Source of the DNA: Burkholderiales bacterium | GTDB lineage: Bacteria; Pseudomonadota; Gammaproteobacteria; Burkholderiales; Burkholderiaceae_C | Reading direction: 5' to 3' | NCBI GenBank assembly: GCA_028864885.1 | Contig: JAGWLR010000032.1 | Location: 1 to 34,748 of the forward strand | DNA: 34,748 nucleotides | Shown: positions 2,654-11,602 of the stretch, in pieces | Position numbering within the stretch: position 1 is the first letter of the stretch | Layout of the letters: each line of letters opens with the position of its first letter | Translations under genes and position numbers: made by a program | The notes under the pieces: generated by a model | The model's database searches: none | Told to the model about the DNA's origin: nothing | Seen by the model: only the letters and a program-made list of their open reading frames with translations

Positions 2654-3742
2654 TCACATCGCGCGAGATGACATGTCCTGATGAAAGCTCAGAGCGCGTT
2701 CATTCAGATGTGTGATCAGGCTCAACTGGGAAAGAAGGATGTCGACTGCCTTTTCCAGTTGATGCCCGCCAGACAGCGCCCGAATAGCGTGTGGCGAGGT
2801 GAAGCGGATCACCAAGTCATTCGAGCTTGCTGTGCATCCACCGATGTCTTTGCCTGCGCCAAAGCTGACGCTTCTGACCAGCGATGGCGGAGGTGCCCAA
2901 GTCAGCGGAGTGGATGGAGACATCCTTGCAGGGAGCTGATAGGTCTCGATATCCAGCACCTTCATTCGCAAGGTGAGAACTTCAAGCTCCAGCGCGCGAT
3001 GGCTTTTGTGTCTACGCTCGGTCATACAGAAGACGCCACACCCAAAGGTCTTGAAACCACGCAGCACGACCGCGGCTTGAGATCTGGCTTGATCGGTGTG
3101 CCCAACCACTTCAACCGTGAGAGATTGGGCGACCCTCATCAGCAGGCGGCTGACCGATTGAGCCACTTGAAGCTGACGGACCGAGATGGACTCATCACAG
3201 ATCGCTGGTGATTTGGATTGCTCTGCCAGCGAGGCGTGCAAAGCAAGCGATTCCAAAAGGAACCCAACGGATTGGGACGAGTTCGGGGCTTCCAGGATCA
3301 GCTGGGTCGCCAAGGGCAGGGCGGACATCGCGAACCATTCGGTGTCGCCATCGTGACGGCGTCGGATGTCTGGATTGAGCCGATGCGGGCTCAACGCCTT
3401 GTGCAACATGCACTCCAGTTCGCGTGCCCGCTTGAGGCAATCGAGCCGCACAACGAGCGAGCGGCTGACATCCACCTCGCCTGCCTCTTCAAGCTGCGAC
3501 AGACGCACGATTGGCTCGATGCTGATGCCGATCTTCAGGCGGGGTTCGACCTTGTGTACAAACAGGTACAAGAAGCAGGCCTGCGTGGTTTGACGAATGC
3601 TGTGCCGTGACCAAGGTTTCGCGAGCCTCGGCTTCTTGCCTCGGCGGTTCGGTTGTTGCTCTTGCGCAGGGTTCTGTTCGAGCGTGATCGAATGGGGGGC
3701 CGGGCAGCGAACAATCCCGTCATGAGGAAGTGCCGTGTTCAT
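2654..3742 (-). CDS. GIY-YIG/T5orf172-like domain protein
   Basis: The product is 362 residues. Residues about 57-122 resemble the T5orf172/MUG113 branch of the GIY-YIG nuclease fold: an aromatic strand (FLYLFVH), a KIGIS strand in the YIG position, PIVRL with the conserved arginine, and RELECMLHKAL with the glutamate and a helix. A TEWFAM motif follows, as often seen at the end of this domain. The remaining 230 residues have no recognisable domain. The ATG at 3740-3742 overlaps the stop of the upstream gene (ATGA), so the two are probably co-translated; an alternative upstream start at 3790 is less likely. It is the third gene downstream of the integrase. DNA-cleaving activity is possible by family but unproven here. 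Confidence 0.6.
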   Translation of the reverse strand: MNTALPHDGIVRCPAPHSITLEQNPAQEQQPNRRGKKPRLAKPWSRHSIRQTTQACFLYLFVHKVEPRLKIGISIEPIVRLSQLEEAGEVDVSRSLVVRLDCLKRARELECMLHKALSPHRLNPDIRRRHDGDTEWFAMSALPLATQLILEAPNSSQSVGFLLESLALHASLAEQSKSPAICDESISVRQLQVAQSVSRLLMRVAQSLTVEVVGHTDQARSQAAVVLRGFKTFGCGVFCMTERRHKSHRALELEVLTLRMKVLDIETYQLPARMSPSTPLTWAPPPSLVRSVSFGAGKDIGGCTASSNDLVIRFTSPHAIRALSGGHQLEKAVDILLSQLSLITHLNERALSFHQDMSSRAM

Positions 3743-4191
3743 TGCACACCTCCCCTGTTCATCAGGGCCTGGTTGAGAGCGTGCCCGCACAGCTTGGCCA
3801 GCAAGGCAGGCGCTTCTTCCAGAGAGAGATCACGGCGCGAGTGTTGCCAAGGCTTGTCTTCAGGCTCCAGTGGAACGCGCTGCTGCAAGACGTCGACGAC
3901 GGATGCCAGCGGGAAGGCGACGATGGTCACCAACTGGGGTTGCTCCAATGACCAGAGTGACACGTCAATACGGACTTGGTCCGTGTCGTTTTGATCCAAA
4001 GGCACGCACACAACCCAGTTGTGAGAGTTCGCCACCGAGATACCTTGGGCTTTCATGTGGGCATGCATTCGTCGAAAAAGGGCAGATTGCTGGCCTCGAC
4101 GCGTGTTCGGTTGAAACCCCAACCGGAGGATGATGGTCTGTACTTGGGGTCGATTTGGTGCGACCTGGTTCGTTGAGCTCTTGGCTTTCAT
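3739..4191 (-). CDS. Hypothetical protein of the integrative element
   Basis: I do not recognise this 150-residue protein. It is mixed alpha/beta in appearance, with a strand-rich middle (NWVVCVPLDQ, RIDVSLWSLEQPQLVTIVAF) and a helical C-terminus; there is no signal peptide or membrane segment. I chose the ATG at 4189-4191, although the frame is open to 4314, because the region upstream carries a palindrome and a decamer repeat array that look regulatory. Its stop codon overlaps the start of the GIY-YIG-like gene, so they likely act together. The longer start would give 191 residues. Confidence 0.6.
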   Translation of the reverse strand: MKAKSSTNQVAPNRPQVQTIILRLGFQPNTRRGQQSALFRRMHAHMKAQGISVANSHNWVVCVPLDQNDTDQVRIDVSLWSLEQPQLVTIVAFPLASVVDVLQQRVPLEPEDKPWQHSRRDLSLEEAPALLAKLCGHALNQALMNRGGVQ

Positions 4192-5190: not shown

Positions 5191-6576
5191 TCAGATCGCG
5201 GTGTGTGTTGCGGCGAACGAGTTGGTTTTGAAACCGCCTAGCGCGACAAAAAGGGGCGGGCCATGGCCGTCTTGGTGACGGTTGGTGTGAGGGGCTGTCG
5301 TCGATGGATGACTTGGGATCGCTCTCCGATCATGGTCCGATGCCGGCGCAGACAATGTGATGTCGCCGCTGGCAAACCGGCTGGACAAAAGCCGATCGAT
5401 CGCCGAGCCGTCCTGCCGGGTGATGTTGGGCACATAGCGGCTGTACACCCGAAACAGCATCTCGGTGCTGCCGTGGCCGAGCTGGCGCGCGATCCACTCC
5501 GGAGATTCGCCTGAGGCAAGCCACAACGTGGCCGCCGTGTGCCGCATCTGGTACGGGCGTCGCATCTCCATGCCGGCGTGACGCAGCAGTGGATACCAGA
5601 CCCGGTCCGTGAAGTTCTTGTTATCCAGCGGCTTACCCTGTCTGTTGCAGAACACGTATTCAGACAGGTGTGCGGTCGCAGCGTGCATCCGCATCAGTGC
5701 TTCGAAGACGGGCTGACTCATCTGAATGTCGCGCTGGGACGAGTCGGTCTTGGTGTACTCGTCTTCCCCCAGAACCTGCGTCTCGCGAATCAGGATCTGA
5801 CGGCGCTCAAAGTCCACGTATTTCCACTTCAGGCCGTGGGCTTCACCCGTTCGCATTCCCGTGAAGATCCGAATCACCAGATAGTCCTTGAAATCTGGGC
5901 GACAGACTGCGAGCAGCTTTTGCACCTCAGTCAAAGAGAACGGGTGCACATCGGTCTTCCGGATCTTCAGAGGCTTGTAGTTCGCCAAGGGATTCGTAAA
6001 GCCGTGGCGGTCCGCCGCATCTTCGAGGATGCGTCGCAGAGGGCCCAGGATTCCGTTGATCCGCTTGTTCGACAAAGTCGATTTGCCGCTGCGACCAGGC
6101 AGTGACGCCAACTGATTGCGAAAGGCCATGATGTCCTCTCGCGTGATGTCACCGATGGGTTTGTCCTGGAAGTACCGAATCAAATGGTTGTCGATCGTGG
6201 ACTGAAGCGTCCTGAGATGTGATCGACGCCATTCGATTTGATGCTCCAGTACCCATTGCTCGACGAACGTGCGAAAGGACGGCGTCGTAGTACTCGCCGG
6301 CAGCTCGCGTTTGAACGGAGCAGCAACGATTGGAGAACTCATCTGATGCAACGCCTGTGCTTCTAGTTCTTGAACGCGAGATGAAGTTGGAAACGCTTTG
6401 GCGTAGTCAAAGGTTCCTTGTTTGATCTCTTGCTCGATCCCCAAGAGCAACTTTTCCAGTCGCTTTCGGTTTGCGGGCGTTTCGGGCAGGAGCGTTTGCT
6501 CCCGGCACCGCTGGCCTTGATACCGGAAGTCCAAGAATAGGAGACCGGTTTCCTTTCGAGAACGCACACTACCCAT
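5191..6576 (-). CDS. Tyrosine-type site-specific integrase
   Basis: This 461-residue tyrosine recombinase integrates and excises a mobile element. Residues 1-65 look like an arm-type DNA-binding domain (DUF3596-like: GSVRSRKETGLLFLDFRYQG). About 100-200 is the SAM-like core-binding domain, and 210-390 the catalytic domain. Visible catalytic residues are Arg242 (GMRTGEA), Lys276 (YTKTDSS), Arg345 (YQMRHTAAT), His368 (LGHGS) and the nucleophile Tyr378 (RVYSRY). The first histidine of HxxR is replaced by tyrosine (YQMR). I chose the ATG at 6574-6576 because GGAGGT lies seven bases upstream (6584-6589). The start lies inside the end of the excisionase-like gene, implying coupling. Confidence 0.9.
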   Translation of the reverse strand: MGSVRSRKETGLLFLDFRYQGQRCREQTLLPETPANRKRLEKLLLGIEQEIKQGTFDYAKAFPTSSRVQELEAQALHQMSSPIVAAPFKRELPASTTTPSFRTFVEQWVLEHQIEWRRSHLRTLQSTIDNHLIRYFQDKPIGDITREDIMAFRNQLASLPGRSGKSTLSNKRINGILGPLRRILEDAADRHGFTNPLANYKPLKIRKTDVHPFSLTEVQKLLAVCRPDFKDYLVIRIFTGMRTGEAHGLKWKYVDFERRQILIRETQVLGEDEYTKTDSSQRDIQMSQPVFEALMRMHAATAHLSEYVFCNRQGKPLDNKNFTDRVWYPLLRHAGMEMRRPYQMRHTAATLWLASGESPEWIARQLGHGSTEMLFRVYSRYVPNITRQDGSAIDRLLSSRFASGDITLSAPASDHDRRAIPSHPSTTAPHTNRHQDGHGPPLFVALGGFKTNSFAATHTAI

Positions 6577-6808
6577 GGAGTACACCTCCATTGGCCATCG
6601 GAATCGGGAGGCTGCTTTCGCGGCTCTTTGATCCCATGTCCTCGGCAATCTGCTCCCAAACGTAGAGGATCTTCCTGCCGCCGAATGGACGGATGTAGTG
6701 AACCCCCTCCAAAAGAACGCTGTCTTTCAGACGTTCGCGTATGGTCCGTTGGTCATATTTGATCCTGGCCGAAAGCTCTTCGGTCGTGAGATAAGTTGGC
6801 CCTGCCAC
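6569..6808 (-). CDS. Excisionase-like small DNA-binding protein
   Basis: This 79-residue protein has a predicted winged-helix or HTH fold (YLTTEELSARIKYDQRTIRE, then a VHYIRPFGGRKILYVWEQI wing). It resembles the small proteins commonly encoded just upstream of integrases, which act as directionality factors or regulators. It starts with GTG at 6806-6808, with GAGAGGTG a few bases upstream (6813-6820). Its 3' end overlaps the integrase start by eight bases and contains the integrase ribosome-binding site. Assignment as an excisionase rests on size, fold and context. Confidence 0.75.
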   Translation of the reverse strand: MAGPTYLTTEELSARIKYDQRTIRERLKDSVLLEGVHYIRPFGGRKILYVWEQIAEDMGSKSRESSLPIPMANGGVLHG

Positions 6809-7356: not shown

Positions 7357-8352
7357 ATGGGACGTAAATCAAGGGAAAAGAAGGTCCGGAAGCAACTCTT
7401 CAGCGGGGAGGCGCTCGCACTGCTTCGTCCTGCAAGGGCGACCGGAATTGGTCTGCAAGACATCTCGACGTTCAGGGCGTTTGACGAGTCCTATTCGTTG
7501 ACAAAGGTTCCGAAACTGTACAAGTACTTTGACGTTGATCGCCTGGTCAGCATGCTCAAGGCGCCATCGATACGGTTCACGCAGCCCGAGTACCTCAACG
7601 ATCCGTACGAATGTCATTTGACGCTGGACAGGCACGCCCTTACAGCCGACTATCGAGAGTTTCGCAAACGGCGCTCTCCTGGCATCAGCAATTCCGAGCT
7701 TGACAGTGCTGTCGAGGCTGCGGAGTCGCAGATCATCATTGATGCGCTCATCGGGTACCGACGACAGCGGGACAACCTCGGGGTTTTGTCCCTTTCTGAG
7801 GATCCGCTCCAACTTCTCATGTGGTCTCACTATGGAAGCGAGCATGCCGGCGTCTGCGTCGAGTTCGACGTTACGAAATTGATGCCGGACGTGGGAAACG
7901 TTCAGCCCGAACAACTTTCAATCTTGCGCCCGGTCCGATATACGCAACAGAAGGTCTCGGGGCTCCCGCGTCCGGACACAATCATTGAAGTCCTTACTAC
8001 TAAGTCAAATCATTGGTCCTACGAGCGCGAGTGGCGAATGGTTCGCACTCTCGACATGACGCGAAAGGTCAACGAGAGCATCCATGTCGTCGACTTTCCA
8101 ATCGAAGCGATCAAGGCCGTATACCTCGGAGCAAAGTTTCCTGCCGCTAGGCTGGGCGAGGTCACGAAGCTTGCCGAAGCTCAGGGTGGCAGTCACATCA
8201 ACTTCGTGAAGTTGTATATTGCACCGCATCGATTTGAGCTGCGGCAGACAACCCTGGAAAAATACGGATGGAAGCTCCTGCACCGGGAACATCACTTCGG
8301 GGAGGCAGCACATGAAGCGTTGGTATGTCTTCCGATGGACGACGATGCTTAA
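7357..8352 (+). CDS. DUF2971 family protein
   Basis: This 331-residue protein shows the conserved blocks of DUF2971: KLYKYF (about 54-58), IRFTQPEYLNDPYE (72-85), GVLSLSEDPLQLLMWSHYG (142-160), AGVCVEFD (164-171) and SNHWSYEREWRMV (217-229). The biochemical function of the family is not established to my knowledge; it is common in accessory and defence-rich regions. The N-terminus is basic (GRKSREKKVRKQ). The ATG has AGGA eight bases upstream. It stands alone, separated by about 190 bases from the HTH gene, and converges on the nuclease gene. GC content is low relative to the core genome. Confidence 0.8.
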   Translation: MGRKSREKKVRKQLFSGEALALLRPARATGIGLQDISTFRAFDESYSLTKVPKLYKYFDVDRLVSMLKAPSIRFTQPEYLNDPYECHLTLDRHALTADYREFRKRRSPGISNSELDSAVEAAESQIIIDALIGYRRQRDNLGVLSLSEDPLQLLMWSHYGSEHAGVCVEFDVTKLMPDVGNVQPEQLSILRPVRYTQQKVSGLPRPDTIIEVLTTKSNHWSYEREWRMVRTLDMTRKVNESIHVVDFPIEAIKAVYLGAKFPAARLGEVTKLAEAQGGSHINFVKLYIAPHRFELRQTTLEKYGWKLLHREHHFGEAAHEALVCLPMDDDA

Positions 8353-8613: not shown

Positions 8614-9846
8614 CTACAGAAGTGGTCGCTGATTCGAGTCGCCAGATTGCTCGGCTGGCGATCCGACAGAAGAGTCTTTGCCCTGTTTGTTGGTTGACGT
8701 TGCAGGCTTTCCGTCAGGCGCCTTTGCGGAAGCTTCTGGCGGTCGAGGTTGATCAGCCGCCGCGTCATTTGAAGGAGCACAGATCGAGGCGGGTGGTTGC
8801 ACCGGCGCGCTGACGTCGACCACGATGGGCAGGGAACTGCGTTTGACACCGATGAAATCGGCGAAGACCCCAAGGATGGAGCGGGTCTCCAGACTCATGA
8901 CGAACCGCTTCGGATCCCCGGATGTATGGGCCGCTGCCTCGAGCTCCCGCGCAGCACTGAACAGGTGCTGTGCATGTTGCTCGCGCATAAAGTACTCTGC
9001 GATCACTTCCGCGCGAACCCCTTTGAGCCTTCTTTCCAGTTGCTGTCGCGCTTGGGCGGCAATGGCTTTGCCGTTCTGCATTCCTTCGGAAAGGGCTTCC
9101 AGTGCGGTCTGAATGCTGGCTTGGATCCTCCCGTCACCTGAGTCGCCAAAAATCACGCCGTTGATCAGACCTTCATGTCGAGTGTCCACGTCACTGAAGA
9201 CGAACCGTTCAAGGCCGATGTCCAATGCGACGCAAGCGATACCCGCCGACAACAGGGCGCACCGCAGCGCCACCTCGCGATGTTGGACCCGTACCTCGAC
9301 GCGCTCACCAAAGAACCTGAACGCGAACATTGCTCGGTTGAAAGCCGGGAAACCTGGGAGGCTCGCGACGGCAGACTTTGCATCTCCGAGGATGCGTAGC
9401 CAATCACCGTCCTGTTTGTGCCCTGGGTTTTGCTGAATCAAGTCCGCAAGTTCCTCCAGAGTCAGGCGCTCGTCAATGTCGAGTTTCTTGGCCAACTTGT
9501 CCAAGAAGTCTTTCGACAAGACTGCAATGTTTTGGGACTGAGCGAATCGAAGCAGGGACTGCGAGCTATCTGTGGTCGCAACGATGGCGCGATCGCACTT
9601 CATAACAGTCTGAAGTCCTTTCACCCACAGCACTCGTTCGAATGCCTTAGGGGACTTCTTGTTCTTGACGTCAACGATGGCCCGCACGCGCGTGGTTGCC
9701 GACTGCCGCGCGTACAACCAAGTGTCCAAGTCGGTCACATCGTGCTCTTCGTATTGGAACGGTACTGACCGTAGCGCAAAGAACCCCTGTCGCTCGAAGT
9801 ACGCGCGAACAAGCTCTTCCAATGCGGGTCCCTTTCCTGGTGCCAT
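8614..9846 (-). CDS. Predicted PD-(D/E)xK nuclease, second gene of a two-gene operon
   Basis: The product is 410 residues. Residues 5-120 read like a restriction-endonuclease-like fold: a first helix with glutamates (ALEELVRAYFERQGFFAL), the acidic residue in DVTDLDTWLY (Asp39 or Asp41), and the VDVKNKK strand giving the D-x-K pair Asp59/Lys61. A strand and helix follow (CDRAIVATTD). The middle is unrecognised and mostly helical; the last 65 residues are Pro/Ala/Ser-rich and probably disordered. I chose the ATG at 9844-9846 because it follows the upstream stop by one base (TGAGATG), giving tight coupling to the winged-helix gene. Nuclease activity is predicted from the motif only; a role in defence is speculative. 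Confidence 0.65.
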   Translation of the reverse strand: MAPGKGPALEELVRAYFERQGFFALRSVPFQYEEHDVTDLDTWLYARQSATTRVRAIVDVKNKKSPKAFERVLWVKGLQTVMKCDRAIVATTDSSQSLLRFAQSQNIAVLSKDFLDKLAKKLDIDERLTLEELADLIQQNPGHKQDGDWLRILGDAKSAVASLPGFPAFNRAMFAFRFFGERVEVRVQHREVALRCALLSAGIACVALDIGLERFVFSDVDTRHEGLINGVIFGDSGDGRIQASIQTALEALSEGMQNGKAIAAQARQQLERRLKGVRAEVIAEYFMREQHAQHLFSAARELEAAAHTSGDPKRFVMSLETRSILGVFADFIGVKRSSLPIVVDVSAPVQPPASICAPSNDAAADQPRPPEASAKAPDGKPATSTNKQGKDSSVGSPAEQSGDSNQRPLL

Positions 9847-9847
9847 C

Positions 9848-11113
9848 TCAGCCCCCACTGCGCAGGCGATCAAGCGCGCCCGTCACGAATGCTTTGTCTT
9901 GAAGCGTATGCCGCTCGCGAACCCGATGTCGGTTCTCGCTCGGGCCCTGGAAGTTGGTGGCTGGCGACCCGTCGAGAAGAAGCGCGTCGGTGGCGATGTT
10001 GTTGCCACGGATCAGCGCACGGGCCAACTCCCCCACATCCTTCTTCAGCAGTTTCATGGTGCAGCGTCCACCGCCCTTGTTTTCAAGTTGGACAACCTGT
10101 CGCTTCTCCAACTCTTTGTAGTCTTCCGCGATCGCACGCACGCCGTGCTGACCACCGACAGACATGCCGTTAATCAAGTTTCTGAGCAGAGCATCAGGCC
10201 AGGCAATGCTTCCTCGCGCGGCATCGCTGCGGGTCATGCCGTAAGTCAGAGACGCGAGCAATGCCTTCGCATCATCCACGGGATCGTCTTCGAACGGGCG
10301 TCCGTACTTCTGGAAAGCATCAGGAGATGTCAGATACCCCACCGCCTCAGTGCTGTTGCTGACTTCCAGCCTGTCAAAGAGGCCAACGCCCACGAGGCGC
10401 CGGTAGAGTTCATCGCCCAAGATGCTCGTCGCTTCGATGTCAGAGACGGCGCCGCGCTGCTTAATCTTGTCCTGCAGTTCGCTGAGCCGACTGCATTCGG
10501 CTGCGCTCAGCGCTTGCATCAAGTTGTATGCCTTGGAGGCGTACTTCGCGTCCCGAAATGTGTTGCTGTTAAATAGGATCTGGAAGCCCCGGTCCTCTGA
10601 CTGGTCCAGAATAGCAGCAGACCGACAGACGTCGATCAGCGATTCCATGTCCCTGGACGCGATCTTGTACTGATCGGAGATCTGCTGGGCGACAACTGCC
10701 CTTGCCTCGGGCTTCTCGGCGACCTTCTCTGAGAGATGAACGACCGCGCGCTCTTCAATTGAAGGGTTCGCGGCTTCGAAAATCCGGGCCGTCGCTTCCA
10801 AGACGCCCTCGGTGGTCGCGCCGATAACTGCAATATCGCCTGTCGCGGACACATCGATGCGCCCTTCGGCCTGCAGCGTTTTAAGACCCAGTTCGCGCGA
10901 CGCGCGATCAATATTGTTAAGGCGGCAGATGTCGGTGACAGTCGCGGAACTGACGACCGGCGTTCGACCATCCAGGGAGCTGCGACGCAGCAGGTTGTAG
11001 AGCCGTCCTGTACGACCCGCGTACTGGATGTTCTCCAAGCGTCCTACGCCACTGACCGCGTCCAAGCTCTTGGACTGTGCAAGCAGCCAAGCGCCTCTAG
11101 TTTTATCGTCCAT
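9848..11113 (-). CDS. Double winged-helix protein, first gene of a two-gene operon
   Basis: I do not recognise the family of this 421-residue protein. Two winged-helix-like segments are visible: residues 55-98 (VTDICRLNNIDRASRELGLK followed by an EGRIDVS wing) and about 324-370 (AEDYKELEKRQVVQLENKG). The centre is helical (SKAYNLMQALSAAECSRLSE, ELYRRLVGVGLFDRL). There is no signal peptide or membrane segment. I chose the ATG at 11111-11113 because GGAG lies eight bases upstream; a GTG six codons earlier (11131) is possible. It is immediately followed by the predicted nuclease gene, so it may recognise nucleic acid or regulate and target the nuclease. Confidence 0.6.
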   Translation of the reverse strand: MDDKTRGAWLLAQSKSLDAVSGVGRLENIQYAGRTGRLYNLLRRSSLDGRTPVVSSATVTDICRLNNIDRASRELGLKTLQAEGRIDVSATGDIAVIGATTEGVLEATARIFEAANPSIEERAVVHLSEKVAEKPEARAVVAQQISDQYKIASRDMESLIDVCRSAAILDQSEDRGFQILFNSNTFRDAKYASKAYNLMQALSAAECSRLSELQDKIKQRGAVSDIEATSILGDELYRRLVGVGLFDRLEVSNSTEAVGYLTSPDAFQKYGRPFEDDPVDDAKALLASLTYGMTRSDAARGSIAWPDALLRNLINGMSVGGQHGVRAIAEDYKELEKRQVVQLENKGGGRCTMKLLKKDVGELARALIRGNNIATDALLLDGSPATNFQGPSENRHRVRERHTLQDKAFVTGALDRLRSGG

Positions 11114-11558: not shown

Positions 11559-11602
11559 GTGGGCACAACTTGGGCACGCGGTGGGCACAGGACGGGCACA
11601 GA
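11559..11602. repeat. Four tandem 11-base repeats with a GGGCAC core
   Basis: GGGCAC occurs at 11561, 11572, 11583 and 11594, exactly every 11 bases; the units are GTGGGCACAAC, TTGGGCACGCG, GTGGGCACAGG and ACGGGCACAGA. The array abuts the terminator behind a tRNA-fMet gene, where integrating elements commonly insert. An integrase arm-site array is the likeliest reading. A remnant of an integrase 3' end is an alternative. Confidence 0.7.

Follow-up and report, generated by a model that had tools for sequence, protein, structure and literature searches.

Contig JAGWLR010000032.1 of a Burkholderiales bacterium (assembly GCA_028864885.1), a stretch of 34,748 nucleotides referred to below as the window, encodes on its minus strand a pair of adjacent genes that, on balance, we take to be a self-contained mobile nuclease module, probably protecting its carrier, be it a cell, a plasmid or a prophage, from other genetic elements. 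Gene 1 (11113-9848), the first of the operon, encodes a tandem winged-helix protein of 421 amino acids (aa), as judged from its open reading frame (ORF) and homologues, a structural model and fold matches of modest score. Gene 2 (9846-8614) encodes a protein of 410 aa, modelled as a PD-(D/E)xK nuclease domain followed by a helical domain and a disordered tail. The predicted fold, the conservation of the nuclease motif, the pairing of the genes, their carriage by mobile elements and a conserved motif at the C-terminus of gene 2 were all computed directly. A role in defence or in the exclusion of one element by another is suggested because the pair is an accessory of several kinds of mobile elements, occupies an accessory locus of P2-like prophages, and combines a conserved nuclease with a winged-helix partner.

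We infer a mechanism in which DNA would be the substrate and gene 1 the sensor. The winged-helix array of gene 1 would bind a nucleic acid or a nucleoprotein structure, acting as a sensor or licensing subunit, and gene 2, with its predicted helical domain and metal-dependent PD-(D/E)xK DNA endonuclease domain (D41, D59 and K61, with E10), would cut upon the permission of gene 1. In the clade of the window, gene 2 also has a tail, predicted to be flexible, that terminates in Q-x-x-L-[L/I] and probably serves as a leash to a host protein; if this partner were the sliding clamp, the nuclease would be placed on replicating DNA.

The nuclease domain comprises residues 1-125 of gene 2 (9472..9846, minus strand), for which a PD-(D/E)xK fold with the alpha-beta-beta-beta-alpha-beta core was predicted (model mean pLDDT, the predicted local distance difference test score, of 82.5). 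The residues D39 and D41 (9724-9732, minus strand), as well as D59 and K61 of the (D/E)xK motif D59-V-K61 (9664..9672, minus strand), were identical in 32/32 gene pairs, with identity as low as ~13%. Position 10 is a glutamate in 26 of the 32 pairs, while the remaining six, from a distant clade, have lysine (five) or a gap (one); the protein of the window has E10/E11. In a further, 33rd pair, at locus L056, the position of D59 is occupied by glutamate (ECK, read by eye), which the motif allows. The first-pass annotation, made from the window alone, had proposed a nuclease on the basis of an N-terminal glutamate, D39/D41 and D59-x-K61; all these residues are present, and the predicted fold together with the fold matches bears the proposal out at the level of modelling. 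Two gene 2 homologues are longer than that of the window: the one at L050:7932-9653 (573 aa) has a C-terminal extension and adjoins a DNA methyltransferase gene, and the one at L056:9244-11031 (595 aa) has an N-terminal tandem-repeat region.

Among the structures matched by gene 2 in a Foldseek search were MspJI, in the top row (E 0.013), and AspBHI. In addition, gene 2 matched the Pfam family Mrr_cat (PF04471) with 17.2 bits, below the curated cut-off of 21. A sub-threshold match of this kind was also obtained for two of three distant relatives, and the domain itself is present in 2/120 listed homologues (P0060 and P0071). All of this would fit a split type IV restriction system, a narrower form of the defence reading in which gene 1 would be the reader of modified bases or structures, with gene 2 doing the cutting, as would the fact that no methylase partner recurs with the pair. 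However, a Pfam scan of gene 1 revealed no known modified-base reader domain and its winged-helix units are generic, so that we consider such a system quite improbable. Enzymes of the Mrr/MspJI type combine the recognition and nuclease parts within one protein, whereas here there are two genes and the Pfam cut-off is not reached.

Other known systems resemble the pair in part. In the published excerpts on the CRISPR ancillary nucleases Can2 and Card1 these enzymes have a ligand-binding CARF domain, whereas neither gene gave a Pfam CARF match, the gene 1 model being of low confidence. BrxA/DUF4007 of BREX (bacteriophage exclusion), as described in an excerpt of PMC12839542, is similar in its several helix-turn-helix (HTH) and winged-helix units and its place in a defence operon, but no Pfam DUF4007 match was found here; the surroundings of the pair were not screened systematically for BREX genes. 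The curated cut-offs of Pfam and NCBIfam were reached by neither gene. A search of PADLOC-DB 2.0.0 (2023) at E 1 yielded no family for the two, and their best match in PHROG had an E of 0.14. Six proteins of three distant pairs yielded one weak PADLOC match (Upx, E 0.038). That the first-pass annotation did not recognise the pair as a named system thus agrees with the results from these four libraries.

Gene 1 appeared to contain more winged-helix units than the two that had been proposed. The model (mean pLDDT 69) has winged-helix topology, with close matches of modest score, at residues ~23-97 (unit 1, 10823..11047) and ~118-184 (unit 2, 10562..10762), all on the minus strand. Similar units of lower confidence, tentatively assigned from the order of secondary-structure elements only, lie at ~204-262 and ~278-355 (units 3 and 4, 10049..10504, minus strand), across which pLDDT varies from 43 to 87 per ten-residue block. 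The region of units 3 and 4 contains many of the positions that are most strongly conserved among gene 1 proteins. The predicted fold thus agrees with the earlier description, at modest scores, but its "double" does not: an array of three or four units is more likely in the light of the model.

The two genes are kept together. In the window their junction reads TGA-G-ATG on the minus strand, which confirms the single base reported earlier between the stop codon of gene 1 and the start codon of gene 2, and the start of gene 1 at 11113 fits the consensus M-D-x-K-T-K-G-A-W of its homologues. The genes are adjacent in 18 of the 19 loci L001-L019, a count that includes the window (L013) and one duplicate (L014=L009, the latter a Delftia copy); the exception, L011, ends at a contig end. 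Of 72,556 plasmid records, tblastn with gene 1 retrieved seven, and tblastn with gene 2 retrieved exactly these seven as well. Distant copies were collected starting from gene 2 (11 viral contig loci; seven plasmids found via the L023 relative, of which five regions were opened; and the genomes G554, G458 and G454). A same-strand ORF of 398-471 aa ends at or just before gene 2 in 18 of these 19 loci. The 19 contain some redundancy, as L040 was cut from the same contig as L012, and L044 and L047 seem to be near-duplicates of L043 and L046. The one exception, L024, turned out to be an unrelated hit. Of the 19 upstream ORFs, 12 gave strong matches to the gene 1 profile (E no higher than 2e-70) and six gave weak ones (E 5e-5 to 6e-3). 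One of the weak six, that of L023, was colinear with gene 1 over 327 columns in a profile comparison (E 3.4e-4, but probability 38%).

The distance matrices of gene 1 and gene 2 were correlated over 32 pairs (r=0.94) and over 12 close ones (r=0.78), and none of 2000 permutations reached as high a value in either set. Neighbouring ORFs up to 6 kb from the pair, 1115 in 29 loci with overlapping ones counted, were compared, and no third gene recurred in more than three of the loci. Recurring neighbours were limited to the sibling loci L005/L006, to P2-like prophages and to seven clusters of 2-3 other loci, representing an integrase, a recombinase, a primase, a methylase, a TrbB/VirB11 ATPase and two unidentified proteins. 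As the pair co-occurs and further neighbours barely recur, the unit consists of two genes. The conserved co-occurrence, which had been named as a way of checking the original proposal, is therefore evident across loci, plasmids and the gene-2-led set, and in the distance correlation. With a nuclease fold predicted, the homologues paired and no known family matched, each result is the opposite of what had been named as speaking against that proposal.

Pairs were found in at least three phyla: Proteobacteria, Bacillota and Actinomycetota. Gene 1 was detected in 3 of 300 genomes from the order and in 2 of 369 from the class, the genome of the window included, and a search with gene 2 yielded four of the 369 class genomes. 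One of these, G458, carries a further distant pair; G454 proved to be an unrelated hit. When 84,980 species genomes were scanned in a pattern-limited way, 11 loci were obtained; E. coli genomes searched at the DNA level gave no match to the pair. The plasmids with the pair are from Vibrio, Mesorhizobium, Rubrobacter, Roseomonas, Komagataeibacter, Burkholderia and Priestia, as well as Streptomyces, where the genes are unannotated; one plasmid copy sits between a relaxase gene and transfer genes. On the Vibrio plasmid NZ_CP047989.1 (20802-23118), gene 1 matched in two pieces across a stretch annotated as an ISVa2 transposase, and is thus probably interrupted. Genes for a Y-family polymerase and a YolD-like protein (L060, 8232-9842) lie near the pair of a Priestia plasmid.

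Twelve distinct IMG/VR contigs contain the pair. The pair of the L012 prophage is flanked by head genes and a primase gene, and that of L042 by the tail sheath and portal genes, in both cases antisense to them. Six viral loci out of the 12 known viral contigs were compared with P2 proteins, and in five of them (L043-L047) the pair is located between S and V; the sixth, L049, had no P2 protein matches. Because of the near-duplicates, these five contigs represent about three lineages. P2 itself has orf30 at this position, antisense and annotated as non-essential. In P2-like phages orf30, Z/fun and TO are loci of horizontally acquired genes, according to an excerpt of PMC3091744. The accessory genes of P2 include the exclusion genes old and tin, as stated in a part of PMC9122126, and P2 fun(Z) is annotated as blocking T5. 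The pair resembles these accessory genes in its orf30 position and in being antisense as orf30 is, but the genes are different, and for orf30 the function is given as non-essential and nothing more.

The carriage by mobile elements, together with a DNA-binding-like gene placed first and overlapping or closely spaced genes, would also fit a toxin-antitoxin system serving element maintenance, in which gene 2 would be a chromosome-cutting toxin restrained by gene 1 and the loss of the island, plasmid or prophage would be punished. Toxin-antitoxin proteins are usually smaller, and both proteins here are large for such pairs. Moreover, a P2-like prophage with the pair between S and V has no obvious need for an addiction function of its own. 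An upstream palindrome common to 28 loci was not seen in the 150 bases before gene 1, in a crude test with mononucleotide shuffles and approximate starts (lowest shuffle counts of 3, 6, 8 and 10 of 60, in four of the loci). We therefore regard this explanation as unlikely.

The conserved C-terminal peptide of gene 2 was absent from the first-pass description and is added here. Residues 346-410 (8617..8811, minus strand) form a tail predicted to be disordered (pLDDT under 50), which ends in the peptide Q-R-P-L-L (8617..8631, minus strand; motif Q-x-x-L-[L/I]). Among 88 non-redundant tails, to which 120 gene 2 homologues had been thinned, 60 have Q-x-x-[LMI]-[FLI] within the last eight residues. 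Shuffled tails gave a mean of 0.3 matches and a maximum of 3 in 1000 runs. Leucine occupies position -2 in 82/88 tails and glutamine position -5 in 61/88. Column entropy is high along the tail and falls at -1, -2, -3 and -5, with no drop in the 25 positions before. The same C-terminal motif was found in none of 120 gene 1 proteins and in 1 of 228 neighbouring ORFs. The counts, the shuffles, the entropy and the control ORFs thus show that the leash carries a genuine linear motif. A contact with gene 1 is an improbable role for it, as distant clades keep gene 1 without the motif.

Several observations weigh against a defence module whose nuclease is docked in this way. Neither gene had a Foldseek match with E below 0.001, and four protein searches of 50,697 phage records yielded no match. 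The mean column identity of gene 1 is higher than that of gene 2 (67% vs 53%, the latter lowered by the variable tail), which is unlike a sensor of fast-evolving phage proteins. Some defence-type neighbours do speak for defence, namely the DUF2971 protein of the window (PDC-S31), DUF262/DUF3696 at L059 and methylases at some loci. Two of ten chosen neighbours matched defence models at E 1e-6, and 65 PADLOC families were matched among 106 neighbours, the 25 shown matching one protein each and being mostly methylase models. As these matches are sparse and come without a matched control, the association with defence islands is weak. In one study of E. coli, 13/31 further validated systems had PD-(D/E)XK domains, whereas of 24 units selected through remote homology, among them six with PD-(D/E)XK, only one defended, according to a part of PMC13092281; a PD-(D/E)XK domain alone therefore proves little. 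As for the tail, the loose motif is missing from the last eight residues in 28/88 cases. In the 32-pair set, as counted by eye, the full motif was found in seven tails and an end in L-[LIF] in 12, and several alphaproteobacterial tails are without the glutamine; the motif is missing from the copies of prophages and Vibrio and from most of the other distant ones. Bacterial clamp-binding motifs, in an excerpt of PMC13254535, follow QL[S/D]LF or the revised form Q-aliphatic-x-[L/M]-[F/L], the glutamine being helpful but dispensable; the strict Q-aliphatic-x-[LM]-[FL] was present in 3/88 tails and the canonical QL[SD]LF in 0/88, position 2 being mostly K, P, Q, G or R.

The peptide nevertheless resembles sliding-clamp docking peptides, and from its sequence the clamp is the best single candidate for a partner, though not a finding; it is only a candidate because few tails fit the revised form and none the canonical one. 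The tail may instead be a C-terminal protease tag or dock to another host protein. In a clamp-docked immune nuclease, the leash would tie gene 2 to DNA-loaded clamps and the gene 1 array would judge invading against own replicating DNA; as a specific version of the defence reading this is rather unlikely.

A C-terminal region with [E/K]-[L/Y]-[T/R]-L-F is found in NucS of many Actinobacteria, as described in a part of PMC8228993. This likeness raises the alternative that the pair serves accessory DNA repair or acts as a mismatch endonuclease, in the manner of EndoMS/NucS, while being carried by mobile elements. NucS has an N-terminal DNA-binding domain and is not known to have a partner like gene 1. 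The catalytic part of EndoMS/NucS is C-terminal, as far as the excerpted source describes it, whereas the nuclease domain of gene 2 is N-terminal with no domain ahead, so that the order of a DNA-binding domain before the nuclease was not found in gene 2. EndoMS/NucS has a C-terminal clamp-binding motif; the gene 2 peptide follows its loose form in 60/88 tails but departs from the strict clamp consensus, and some clades lack it. As the distribution of the pair is also very patchy, and its position in P2-like prophages is that of an accessory locus, a repair role appears improbable, and we retain the defence reading.

In the window, the pair lies near a tyrosine integrase gene (5191..6648, minus strand; Pfam Arm-DNA-bind_2 and Phage_integrase), a small HTH gene, a transposase gene and a tRNA-Met pair. 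GC content is 0.53-0.59 between 3 and 12 kb; outside this region it is mostly 0.60-0.68, apart from two stretches of 0.58-0.59 near 24-26 kb. The integrase, the pair and the low-GC region would thus form one island, whose ends were not found. The integrase close by agrees with the island proposed in the first-pass annotation, but the DUF2971 gene that it had associated with the pair does not: its product (7357-8352) matches the PADLOC candidate PDC-S31 (E 1.7e-40), but no relative was found near the pair in 28 other loci compared, so that it is probably outside the unit. A transposase with rve and Mu-transpos_C_2 domains (847-2439) and a T5orf172/MUG113 protein (2657-3790) possibly belong to the same foreign region. 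Tandem GGGCACA-like repeats at 11561-11600, near the tRNA-Met 3' end, are possibly arm sites of the integrase.

No description of the pair was found in open PubMed Central texts, a scope outside which lie subscription papers, most preprints and supplements, so that it may be in print elsewhere. As far as can be judged from sequence, the pair is a candidate for nuclease-based mobile defence in which both the partner and the C-terminal motif are new. Should defence be its function, the module would be an uncatalogued one, distributed over three phyla or more and over mobile elements of several kinds, with an unusual division of labour between a winged-helix array and a nuclease in a unit with neither ATPase nor methylase. 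If the peptide binds the sliding clamp, innate immunity would be linked to the replisome, which would be an answer to the problem of aiming a non-guided nuclease at replicating invaders: foreign DNA would be found via the replication machinery of the host, with no need for methylation, guides or an ATPase.
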